From: an uncultured Flavobacteriales bacterium
Lineage (GTDB): Bacteria; Bacteroidota; Bacteroidia; Flavobacteriales_D; Parvicellaceae
Reading direction: 5' to 3'
Length of the DNA stretch: 42,625 bases
NCBI GenBank assembly: GCA_913030835.1
Contig: CAJWDP010000026.1
Location: forward strand, 1 to 42,625
Made by a program: the position numbers and the translations under genes. The notes beneath the pieces are model-generated. The model was given only the letters and a program-made list of their open reading frames with translations. It searched no databases and had not been told where the DNA came from. Below, one piece after another: positions 25,088 to 27,523 of this stretch (positions are counted from its first letter, which is position 1; every line of letters begins with the position of its first letter).

Positions 25088-25542
25088 CAAAGTACAGAAG
25101 GCTTACGGTGGAGGAGTTGGATGAGATGCAACAGGAATTTATTCATTATTTGGTCGCGAATGGAATTGAGGCAAAGGATTGGGAGCAGCTAAAAGAAAAG
25201 GATGAGAGCCAGGCGCAATTATGGATAGATTCTTTTAGTGATGTGGTGATTCAAAAAGTGTTGGAAGGGGTGAAATACATCGAGCACAGAACATCCAATG
25301 AGTCTAAATTATTTGAATGCTTACCAGACGAAATTCGGCTGATCGGCCTAAGATCGGAAGAAGTGGATTTGTTGGATTCCGAGGAGCTGGCTGCGGCTTC
25401 TCTCAATCCGGGTAAAGTTGAACTTTTCAAAGGAGTAAAAAAATATTCGAAGAAACGGGAAGACGAATTGTTTGAACTTTTGCAGTCCGGAGGCGAAATC
25501 AGCGATGGAAAAATGTATTTGTTGTTGAAACAAATGGTATGA
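25084..25542 (+). CDS. DUF6495-like cytosolic protein
   Basis: This 152-aa soluble, acidic, mainly helical protein starts MTKYRRLTVEELDEMQQEFI. This matches my memory of the Bacteroidota-specific DUF6495 family (KYRRLT.E.L..l..EFI.fL...gI). The middle has DSFSDVVIQKVLEGVKYIEH, also typical. No enzyme motif is seen. It overlaps both neighbours by 4 bases (ATGA). Its role is unknown. The family call rests on recall, not on a search. Confidence 0.68.
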   Translation: MTKYRRLTVEELDEMQQEFIHYLVANGIEAKDWEQLKEKDESQAQLWIDSFSDVVIQKVLEGVKYIEHRTSNESKLFECLPDEIRLIGLRSEEVDLLDSEELAAASLNPGKVELFKGVKKYSKKREDELFELLQSGGEISDGKMYLLLKQMV

Positions 25543-26654
25543 GGCTATCTATCTTGCTTGCTTGTTGTATTCTGATTACGTCTTGTCACGTTGGAAAATA
25601 TGTGGTCTACAATTTTGCCGACATAGATGATTACAAGAAATTTCATGACAGAACTCTGGAGAAATCAGAGAAGCCATTTTATTTTTTTGACGGACAGCAA
25701 CAGTCGATCAGCTTAAATATGGAGAAATATGGGGTTCAATCAAAAGAAGACCTAAATCGAATAAATGCTGAGCATAAGACAGTAGCTTTTTTGATCATTA
25801 GGAATGATACGTTGTTATACGATTGGTATGCGGATAAGTATGATAGGTCAACAACACTGACTTCTTTTTCTATGGCAAAGAGCTACGTGTCGACCCTGAT
25901 CGGTATCGCGATTGATGAGGGGTATATAAAAAGTGTAAAAGAGCCGATTACGAACTACATTACTGATTTTAGAAATCCGGGATTTGAAATAATTACAATC
26001 GAACATGTGTTGAATATGCGCACCGGTATTTTTTACAAAGAGAATTATTATTCGCCCTTTGGGAATGTTGCTATTGGATACTACGGAAGAAATTTAGATC
26101 GACATCTTCAAAAGATCAAGGTCAAAGAAGATCCGGATAAACGCTTTGATTATATTTCCATAGCAACCCAAATACTAGGCGTAATTCTTGAAAAAGCAAC
26201 GGGTAAAACCTTATCTCAATACTGTGAGGAAAAGTTGTGGATGAAGCTGGGTACGGAGTATGATGCGACCTGGAGTTTGGATCGAAAAGAAGGCCGGGAG
26301 AAGGCGTTCTGCTGTTTAAATGCAAAAGCCATAGACTATGCAAAGATCGGTAGGCTTTATTTAAATGGAGGGAATTGGGATGGAGAGCAAGTAGTATCTG
26401 AAAATTGGGTGAATGCATCAACGAAAAAATCATCTGATTCAAAGGATATGTTTTATGCCTATCAATGGTGGCATTACCCGAAGTACGACGGTGGATTAGC
26501 AGGAAAAAACGTTGATTTTTACATGCAAGGTCATATGGGTCAATACGTGTATATGTCCCCCGAAAAGAACATTATTTTGGTTAGACTGGGAAAGGGAAGA
26601 GCCGGAGTGAATTGGAACGGGTTTTTAAGCGATCTTGCGGATAGAATGAAATGA
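25539..26654 (+). CDS. Lipoprotein serine hydrolase, beta-lactamase (class C/PBP) family
   Basis: This 371-aa protein has a lipobox (ILITSC, Cys16), so it is probably membrane-anchored in the periplasm or outer membrane. The active-site SxxK is SMAK (Ser111, Lys114) in LTSFSMAKSYVSTLIGIAID. The second motif is the Tyr of FDYISIATQILG (Tyr205), in place of the usual YSN. GHMGQYVYMSP near the end stands in the place of the third, HxG-like motif. The family includes esterases, D-aminopeptidases and DD-peptidases, and the substrate cannot be told from sequence. It is the last gene of the coupled run 23379-26654. No convincing intrinsic terminator follows. Confidence 0.85.
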   Translation: MRLSILLACCILITSCHVGKYVVYNFADIDDYKKFHDRTLEKSEKPFYFFDGQQQSISLNMEKYGVQSKEDLNRINAEHKTVAFLIIRNDTLLYDWYADKYDRSTTLTSFSMAKSYVSTLIGIAIDEGYIKSVKEPITNYITDFRNPGFEIITIEHVLNMRTGIFYKENYYSPFGNVAIGYYGRNLDRHLQKIKVKEDPDKRFDYISIATQILGVILEKATGKTLSQYCEEKLWMKLGTEYDATWSLDRKEGREKAFCCLNAKAIDYAKIGRLYLNGGNWDGEQVVSENWVNASTKKSSDSKDMFYAYQWWHYPKYDGGLAGKNVDFYMQGHMGQYVYMSPEKNIILVRLGKGRAGVNWNGFLSDLADRMK

Positions 26655-26707
26655 AAAATGGGAAACCAATACGATCTCCCACCAATTAAATTATCCTTGC
26701 TATTCTG

Positions 26708-26758
26708 ATGTTCGATAAGGAATTGAACCTTTTAATTGACCGCCTTCGGTCCGAACAT
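26708..26758 (-). repeat. Mini-tRNA-like structured element, copy A
   Basis: Read on the minus strand, the element has a 7-bp closing stem ATGTTCG/CGAACAT (26752-26758 with 26708-26714). Next come a hairpin GACCG-AAGG-CGGTC, the linker AATTAA, and a hairpin AAGG-TTCAATT-CCTT whose GGTTCAATTCC fits the tRNA T-arm consensus GGTTCRANYCC. It is 51 nt, the same length as copy B. There is no D arm and no anticodon arm, so it is not a normal tRNA. Strand and expression are unknown. The minus strand is proposed only because the T-arm consensus reads that way. Confidence 0.6.
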
Positions 26759-26776
26759 TTTGTGTTTAGGATTCAA

Positions 26777-26797
26777 TGGGGAGGCTGAGCCTCCCCA
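26777..26797. other. Perfect GC-rich hairpin between the two elements
   Basis: The stem GGGGAGGC/GCCTCCCC has a TGA loop and is extended by a T-A pair to 9 bp. No T-run follows on either strand, so it is a poor intrinsic terminator. It may block exonucleases, or be a pause site or a protein site. Confidence 0.65.
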
Positions 26798-26835
26798 GAG
26801 AATGGATTAACGCCACCTTACATCCTAGTTTTTCG

Positions 26836-26886
26836 TTGTGATAAAGGAGTTGAACCTTTTAAATTGTCGCCTTCGACCAATCACAA
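26836..26886 (-). repeat. Mini-tRNA-like structured element, copy B
   Basis: On the minus strand the 7-bp closing stem is TTGTGAT/ATCACAA. Then come a TG linker, the hairpin GTCG-AAGG-CGAC, the linker AATTTA, and a 5-bp arm AAAGG-TTCAACT-CCTTT directly stacked on the closing stem, as a T-arm is in tRNA. The loops and linker match copy A, while the closing stem shares almost no sequence with it but pairs perfectly. The AAGG-loop hairpin differs from copy A by two compensatory base-pair changes. Confidence 0.6.
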
Positions 26887-26962
26887 AACTAAAGTTATAA
26901 AAAGAACTTAATTCATCGCCCATTTAACTGAACGAATCCAAAGATATAATTATTTACGTAGA

Positions 26963-27011
26963 ATTATCAAAAAAGTAACAAAAATGCATAATAATTATTA
27001 AAAAAGTAATA
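26963..27011. promoter_or_regulatory. Direct repeats 31 bp apart upstream of lrp
   Basis: ATTATCAAAAAAGTAACA (26963-26980) and ATTATTAAAAAAGTAATA (26994-27011) match at 16 of 18 positions and start 31 bp apart, close to three helical turns. They lie 45 bp upstream of the regulator start and could be autoregulatory operators, which is inference. Confidence 0.45.
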
Positions 27012-27055
27012 TATTTAATGATATACTGTTGAAAATACATTAAAAAGGGTTGAAA

Positions 27056-27523
27056 ATGGCAGAGGATTATGAAATTGATAATTTGGATCGTGAGATATTG
27101 AAAATCTTAATGCAGGATGCTAAGGTTCCGTATACTGAGATTGCTAAAAAGCTCATTGTTTCTCCAGGAACAATTCATGTAAGAATGAAGAAATTAGAGG
27201 ACGCTAAAATTGTTCAGGGTTCACAGTTAATGGTAGATCCTCAGAAACTTGGTTATGACCTTGCTGCCTATTTAGGGGTGTTCTTAGAAAAGAACTCTGC
27301 TTATGAGGAAGTTATCTACCGCCTTGAACGAATTGGTGAAGTGGTAGAAGCGTATTATACTACTGGTAATTATGGTATTTTTCTTAAAATATTTTGTAGG
27401 AATACAAAGCACTTGTATGATGTGTTGAATCATAAAATACAACCCATTAATGGAATACAGCGCACGGAAACACTTATATGCCTGGAGGTAGGCTTAAAGC
27501 GACAAATTAATATTTCATTATAA
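27056..27523 (+). CDS. Lrp/AsnC family transcriptional regulator
   Basis: This 155-aa protein starts from the ATG at 27056 (MAEDYEIDNLDREILKILMQ), with an in-frame TTG two codons earlier as a weaker choice. The N-terminal winged helix-turn-helix reads VPYTEIAKKLIVSPGTIHVR and MKKLEDAKIVQG. The C-terminal RAM/ActD-like ligand domain includes YDLAAYLGVFLEKNSAYEEV and VVEAYYTTGNYGIFLKIFC. Regulators of this kind bind amino acids and form dimers to octamers that wrap DNA. Effector and targets are unknown. It stands alone, with AT-rich repeated DNA upstream, and is near the tyrosine-degradation genes. Confidence 0.92.
   Translation: MAEDYEIDNLDREILKILMQDAKVPYTEIAKKLIVSPGTIHVRMKKLEDAKIVQGSQLMVDPQKLGYDLAAYLGVFLEKNSAYEEVIYRLERIGEVVEAYYTTGNYGIFLKIFCRNTKHLYDVLNHKIQPINGIQRTETLICLEVGLKRQINISL

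Follow-up and report, generated by a model that had tools for sequence, protein, structure and literature searches.

A tandem array of tRNA-like repeats beside an asnC-type gene in Flavobacteriales, and its probable relation to a tRNA-like RNA family of Bacteroidia with aspartate and amidation determinants

The array and its conservation within the genus

The window, a stretch of 42,625 nucleotides from an uncultured Flavobacteriales bacterium (contig CAJWDP010000026.1), contains an array of repeats that occupies the spacer between a serine hydrolase gene and a gene for an AsnC/Lrp-type regulator. The features of the locus are as follows; R2 denotes a covariance model described in the next section.

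26708..26758, minus strand: element E1, 51 nt, with the local stem ATGTTCGG/TCGAACAT, an AAGG hairpin and a T-arm
26836..26886, minus strand: element E2, promoter-proximal, 51 nt, with the acceptor-like stem TTGTGAT/ATCACAA, an AAGG hairpin and the T-arm GGTTCAACTCC
26804..26825, minus strand: invariant 22-mer GGATGTAAGGTGGCGTTAATCC, which contains UGUAAGGUG
26778..26796, strand not assigned: GGGGAGG/CCTCCCC hairpin, from sequence and folding
26707..26823, minus strand: alternative, longer tRNA-like reading that bridges the 22-mer and E1, from R2 alignment, with acceptor pairs 5/7
26939..26970, minus strand: probable promoter, with TATCTTTG at 26946-26939 and TTG 21 nt upstream at 26970-26968, directed towards E2 and away from asnC
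26654..26681, minus strand: possible weak terminator (TGGGA...TCCCATTTTT), a candidate chosen by eye at the promoter-distal end of the array
27050..27523, plus strand: AsnC-like regulator of the Lrp family, divergent from the array, from its ORF and Pfam AsnC_trans_reg
25539..26654, plus strand: serine hydrolase/beta-lactamase-family gene, convergent neighbour, from its ORF and Pfam

The asnC-type protein has a Pfam AsnC_trans_reg match and its best PDB match is E. coli AsnC (2cg4, 3.4e-41); its best NCBIfam model is likewise AsnC, at 189 bits, which is below the equivalog cut-off of 227.

An earlier, sequence-only reading had described two 51-nt minus-strand elements, 77 bases apart, with a common fold, and sequence and folding agree on this, as they do on the AAGG-loop hairpin and the arm with a 7-nt loop fitting GGTTCRANYCC in both E1 and E2. 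The perfect 7-bp closing stem that it gave for each was found in E2, and that of E1 is perfect but has 8 bp. Taken singly, the two elements fold only moderately better than their shuffled counterparts (E1, z -3.15, 2/200; E2, z -1.70, 13/200). Since 542/2000 flank shuffles give a perfect stem of at least 7 bp by chance for E2 (65/2000 for E1), the closing stem of E2 is unremarkable on its own. The 77-bp gap between the elements, which the sequence-only reading had passed over, holds the 22-mer and the GGGGAGG hairpin, both of which are parts of the repeat unit. Within the window, ARAGORN found no tRNA and no RNA family reached its Rfam gathering score.

The same spacer holds three repeats of about 130 bp in each of the two other genomes of the genus that were searched (G001 and G002; the window genome is G000). 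Read on the minus strand, the repeats comprise the AAGG hairpin, the T-arm, the 22-mer and a GGGGAGC-type hairpin. The 22-mer has no mismatch in any of its seven copies across the three genomes. A search of 399 genomes from the order, allowing up to three mismatches, found it in four, exactly in G000-G002 and with three mismatches in G113. In genome_contigs, where near records of the window may be excluded, a slightly looser exact pattern matched the records of G001 and G002 alone, and in viral_contigs it matched nothing. Further copies in relatives and an excess of compensatory changes are what a tRNA-like RNA under structural selection should display, and both were observed. Comparison between genomes is better evidence for the structure than the single folds. 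Over the AAGG hairpins and T-arms of eight elements from the three genomes, with the structure drawn by hand and the closing stem left out, 94.4% of cells are paired and 12 cells carry double changes; the shuffled mean is 4.7 (0/500 shuffles reach 12), and sliding gives 3 at most. The pairs that show a double change number four, a figure that 116/500 shuffles reach as well. We regard the array and its structure as virtually certain to be real.

Bacteroidota promoters follow the consensus TTG-N-TAnnTTTG, and the block CGTAAATAATTATAWCTTTG upstream of the array, which is common to the three genomes of the genus with one mismatch in G002, fits this consensus and is presumably a promoter.

Tandem copies and inverted repeats could also be produced by a small mobile repeat of the MITE or REP kind, which the sequence-only reading had listed as an option and which would resemble a T-arm by chance. 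The searches that were run recovered one locus per genome in the genus, at the same position in three species. In the window's own genome, the core pattern AAGGNNTTGAACCTTTT has two exact matches, both at the window locus, and 25 matches at up to two mismatches (19 for the reversed control). These distributions speak against a mobile repeat, which we consider highly improbable.

Several other candidates were set aside. An integron attC site, a T-box, a TPP riboswitch and a CsrB-like RNA were dropped by eye from the letters of the array, and Rfam lent them no support. Sub-threshold Rfam matches on the G001 array (SQ1002, sraA, 6S-Flavo and others) lie far below gathering and were judged to reflect chance or composition. 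DNA matches were also obtained in G014, G029, G036, G038 and G055; the first three were read and judged by eye to be unrelated.

A family of longer tRNA-like RNAs in Bacteroidia

A tRNA-like sequence stands upstream of the asnC ortholog in a genome of another genus of the same family (G004); its acceptor, TGTGAG/CTCACA, recurs in those repeats of G001 and G002 that are nearest the promoter. This sequence led to relatives in other families. The full tRNA-like RNA of other Bacteroidia (TL) is 112-203 nt long and often divergent from an orthologous asnC gene, and it has the cloverleaf shape of a class II tRNA, in which the variable domain is very long. The covariance model R2 was built from five TLs and has 25 pairs, all of which are formed in 5/5 sequences. 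In the order, R2 detected TLs at 96 bits or more in 10/199 genomes, namely the five model sources and G064, G069, G072, G073 and G081; other matches in the order reach at most 62.6 bits and mostly measure about 84 nt, as ordinary class II tRNAs do. Across the class, R2 matched 77/395 genomes at E 1e-12 or better and 67 at 73 bits or more, and the ten at 55 to 65 bits were left out of the TL count as ordinary-length matches. These counts are lower bounds, because the filters were strict and 16 or 8 candidates were scored per genome. Tandem copies are common, with at least two TL matches within about 1 kb in 17 of the 67 TL genomes of the class.

Across 57 TL copies, 99.4% of pair cells are formed and 116 cells carry double changes; shuffling gave a mean of 32.3 and sliding no more than 20. 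Alignment of the rows to the model biases these values towards the model structure. We hold it very probable that TL is a functional RNA family. ARAGORN detected no TL gene in five TL loci (L076, L107 and L109-L111). Up to E 1, Rfam cmscan left the TLs of L107 and L109-L111 unmatched, and on that of L076 (G004) it gave one sub-threshold match, on the T-arm (RF04351, E 0.013). Among the matches listed, we recognized no publication that describes TL.

Some further observations concern individual TLs. Three copies stand about 130 nt apart in G600 (L221:7893-8263), where tandem duplication recurs as in the window's genus. TLs occur at several places in G729, two on contig C66 and one each on C14 and C38; three of its loci (L211, L212 and L217) have no asnC within about 8 kb, and the ortholog is on C22. 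The TL of G051 had no match in plasmids, and its 5' half matches a large uncultured phage record (LR756504.1:133395-133450, 57 nt, 84%), possibly at a tRNA gene. The longer variable domains (L189, L195, L201 and L076) share GGGTTGACCAC, and the motif pair GGATAAAC...GCTAAC in the same four domains may be a binding or tertiary module.

The residues of TL were counted in 57 cmsearch matches (56 distinct) from chosen TL loci, a sample that is biased towards the model used to find it and includes the five R2 sources (L126-L129 and L133). U1-A72, G2-C71, G73, U35, C36 and C38 are present in all 57 and G34 in 56. Position 33 is U in 48/57 and G in 9/57, and position 37 is U in 51, G in four and C in two, never A. 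In the nine copies with G33, the anticodon loop reads UGGUCUC or CGGUCUC, and the U-turn residue expected in decoding tRNAs is lost. A possible extra -1:73 pair can be formed in 54/57.

According to the excerpted text of PMC9976931, G73, G34, U35, C36 and C38 are conserved aspartate determinants, and U1-A72 is a determinant for the amidation of Asp-tRNA-Asn that is opposed by G1-C72 and U20a. Full TLs, and only these, carry the canonical tRNA-Asp set G34 U35 C36 C38 G73 (56-57/57). The same excerpts state that bacterial aspartate identity also depends on G1-C72 and G2-C71 (PMC9976931); TL has G2-C71, but U1-A72 takes the place of G1-C72 in 57/57, which counts against efficient charging by AspRS. 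Aspartylation of TL appears somewhat more probable than not, and its amidation is about an even prospect.

The class II shape and the G73 present in 57/57 copies would also suit SerRS, which uses a long variable arm and G73 (PMC7609411, in the part consulted). Charging of TL by SerRS or by another synthetase would leave the invariant U35, C36 and C38, the near-invariant G34 and U1-A72 without explanation, and we consider it very unlikely. Other unusual tRNAs with long variable arms, the allo-tRNAs and selC* tRNA-Cys, are described in the same excerpts (PMC7609411); TL differs from them in its 7/5 branch, possible -1:73 pair, GUC anticodon and far longer variable domain.

Association with asnC and with asparagine synthetase genes

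All ten TLs of the order are divergent from an asnC ortholog. The 15 genomes of the order with asnC at E 1e-50 or better comprise ten with a full TL, one with a reduced TL (G048), three with the array (G000-G002) and one in which no TL was found (G012). Among the 40 TL loci returned by the R2 searches of order and class, asnC lies in the flanks of 28 (order 10/10, class 18/30) and is divergent in 28/28, one of these cases being a 27-residue piece at a contig end. A further 20 loci were widened to about 8 kb or to the contig end, 11 of them picked for the lack of asnC in their flanks and nine not viewed previously; asnC was present in four, all among the nine, and absent from 16. These 16 loci come from 14 genomes, each of which carries an asnC ortholog at another place; in G481, a contig break may be what separates it from the TL. 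Across 40 fetched regions, 39 around TLs and one around the reduced TL of G048, asnC is the only widely shared gene (24 loci); a neighbour cluster of 12 loci at asnC positions appears to be asnC read on the other strand, and the next clusters have six.

Genome-wide co-occurrence in the class (395 genomes, asnC at E 1e-38 or better) gave 60 genomes with both, seven with TL alone, 39 with asnC alone and 289 with neither. The ortholog is thus present in 60/67 TL genomes as against 39/328 others (p 3e-36, a value that ignores descent), and one genome counted as TL alone, G506, does have asnC beside its TL. The 39 of 99 asnC-positive genomes in which R2 found no match include the window genome. Upstream of TL or the array, TAnnTTTG occurs at 24 of 31 chosen asnC-linked loci, compared with a mean of 4.9 and a maximum of 10 in composition shuffles.

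Two other shared segments were seen on the side divergent from asnC. G012 (L075:2070-2165, plus strand) and G004 (L076:1000-1085, minus strand) share AAGAGGTAGTAGT...TTTTGTAGT downstream of the asnC-divergent promoter, followed by a terminator-like hairpin, and in G012 no TL precedes this segment. Three genomes of family f52 with asnC and no TL match (L246, L258 and L250) have TTATAATTGGTTRG and then a terminator-like hairpin, perhaps another small RNA.

We read the asnC-divergent side in 20 genomes that have asnC and no TL match, and it carries an asparagine synthetase gene in six. An AsnB gene is found in L248, L257 and L261 and an AsnRS-related asparagine synthetase in L253, L254 and L262. 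The pieces in L248 and L257 pass TIGR01536 (glutamine-hydrolysing asparagine synthase, NCBIfam), and L254 exceeds the cut-off of 309 for asparagine synthetase A with 326 bits and also matches the archaeal enzyme 3p8t; the identity of those in L253, L261 and L262 was assigned by likeness, the 117-residue piece of L253 having no Pfam match. Reduced tRNA-like sequences occupy the divergent side in L249 (32.8 bits) and L252 (only 8 bits), and neither a synthetase nor a reduced tRNA-like sequence was recognized there in the remaining 12/20.

AsnB-family proteins above the TIGR01536 cut-off occur in 73 of the 80 genomes searched, both with and without TL, most TL genomes among them; no match was found in the full-TL genomes G399, G680 and G719, nor in G001, G651 and G422. 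Twenty fetched matches, which are part of all the matches of several genomes, score 271-338 bits against an asparagine synthase B cut-off of 499 in the TL-positive and TL-negative groups alike, as compared with 496 and 406 for the partial proteins of L248 and L257, and these twenty are not canonical AsnB. Because such non-canonical matches occur in TL-negative genomes too, replacement of asparagine synthetase by TL is not supported by the AsnB counts. A search for GatB in one TL genome (G432), covering 1.6 of the 2.85 Mb of its main contig, located the gene at L356:17513-18964 on the minus strand (Pfam GatB_N, 2e-116), and the tRNA-Asn of this genome carries U1-A72.

Origin of the array and a proposed function

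R2, which was built without the array, recovers three of the copies in G001/G002 when 101 kb are searched with filters (E 0.001-0.003). That search yields no match in the window array; with filters off in 461 nt, E2 aligned at 26835-26886 (9.7 bits, E 0.004) as a short tRNA-like sequence whose two acceptor strands are both local, and the bridging reading at 26707-26823 scored 9.5 bits (E 0.0045). R2 aligns UGUAAGGUG of the 22-mer to the 5' acceptor strand of TL plus U8 and G9. In the later repeats, the alignment takes the 5' strand from this part of the 22-mer and the 3' strand from the next T-arm unit, and the bridging acceptor has 6/7 pairs in three of the four G001/G002 units and 5/7 in the fourth and in E1 of the window. 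Given this pairing of the 22-mer with the following repeat, the downstream repeats may be rearranged longer tRNA-like RNAs and not minihelices by origin. The proposal of an acceptor plus T-arm minihelix in the sequence-only reading accordingly fits E2, and the downstream repeats admit this second reading.

By homology, E1 and E2 keep U1-A72 as TGT...ACA. R2 places the G001/G002 hairpin that corresponds to GGGGAGG on the anticodon arm of TL, but this hairpin has no GUC. An anticodon arm with GUC and C38 is absent from the window array by sequence and R2 alignment, and the array is for this reason filed as a derivative of TL and not as a full member; 7/8 array copies also lack G73. Reduced TL forms at the same place in G048 (25.8 bits) and G525 (32.8 bits) may be intermediates between full TL and array, which we count in favour of descent. 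We consider the array to be probably homologous to TL, and read it as a TL duplicated in tandem with its halves re-paired.

We propose, with a probability of roughly 0.55, that the E1/E2 array is a reduced and rearranged tandem TL array, transcribed divergently from the asnC-type gene, and that TL is an asparagine-related carrier. For the carrier we infer a mechanism in which AspRS would charge TL with aspartate via G34, U35, C36, C38 and G73, and GatCAB, reading U1-A72, would amidate aspartyl-TL to asparaginyl-TL. The abnormal positions 33 and 37 and the long variable domain would keep TL off the ribosome, and release from TL would yield free asparagine or report asparagine status. Control of TL by the asnC product may resemble that of asnA by AsnC in E. 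coli. In the window's genus, where U1-A72 is kept and the GUC anticodon arm is gone, the array may be a minimal RNA for acceptor/T-arm enzymes or may be decaying. Charging by AspRS is not expected there because GUC is lost.

Decay could also be the whole explanation. The array of the genus would then descend from a TL split by tandem duplication into alternating halves, and would be kept by recent shared ancestry while decaying. Such a relic would be consistent with the absence of the GUC anticodon arm, the imperfect local stems of G001/G002 units 1 and 2, the low R2 scores of the window and the existence of G012, which has asnC without TL. The invariance of the 22-mer in 7/7 copies from three species, the compensatory changes in the AAGG hairpin and T-arm and the conserved promoter block all argue for maintenance, and we consider a relic unlikely, if not markedly so. 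Alternatively, TL could be a regulatory mimic that binds AspRS, GatCAB or EF-Tu and whose charging state signals Asp/Asn levels, with no role as a metabolic carrier. The same identity residues and asnC linkage would be expected of it, and the asnC product is a regulator of the amino-acid type; an invariant U1-A72 combined with the aspartate determinants suggests amidation in addition to binding, and the long variable domain is left unexplained, as it is under the carrier reading. We judge a purely regulatory mimic to be improbable.

Several known systems resemble TL or its locus in part. tmRNA joins a tRNA-like acceptor and T-arm by a long insert; the G001 array matches the Rfam tmRNA model weakly and at T-arms only, and full TL differs in retaining its D-arm and anticodon arm. 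In E. coli, asnC and asnA are divergent. An AsnC-type regulator there stands beside an asparagine supply gene, as may be the case at the present locus, whose regulator finds its best PDB match in 2cg4. The account excerpted from PMC4482635 describes AsnC of E. coli as an activator of asnA; here the divergent partner is an RNA gene, and its control by the asnC product is putative. The tRNA-dependent synthesis of asparagine by AspRS, tRNA-Asn and GatCAB combines aspartate charging with amidation directed by U1-A72, and TL has both determinant sets described for it (PMC9976931, excerpts). The known route uses a decoding tRNA-Asn, whereas TL places an aspartate anticodon on a Leu-like class II body without decoding features.

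TL is present in about one sixth of the sampled Bacteroidia genomes (67/395), often beside asnC, and was missed by ARAGORN and Rfam where these were tried, which would constitute a clear annotation gap. That TL is made for asparagine supply we consider somewhat less likely than not. The full proposal is about as likely or slightly less so: Bacteroidia may have a dedicated, non-decoding tRNA-like carrier that allows AspRS and GatCAB to convert bound aspartate to asparagine, with AsnC in control and an RNA gene standing in the place of an asparagine synthetase, and this carrier may have shrunk to tandem acceptor/T-arm minihelices in the window's genus. If TL does carry aspartate to asparagine, it would be, to our knowledge, the first tRNA-like RNA for making an amino acid rather than for decoding. 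If true, this would bear on the source of asparagine in bacteria that have GatCAB and AsnRS and no asparagine synthetase, a question raised in the excerpts of PMC4206432.
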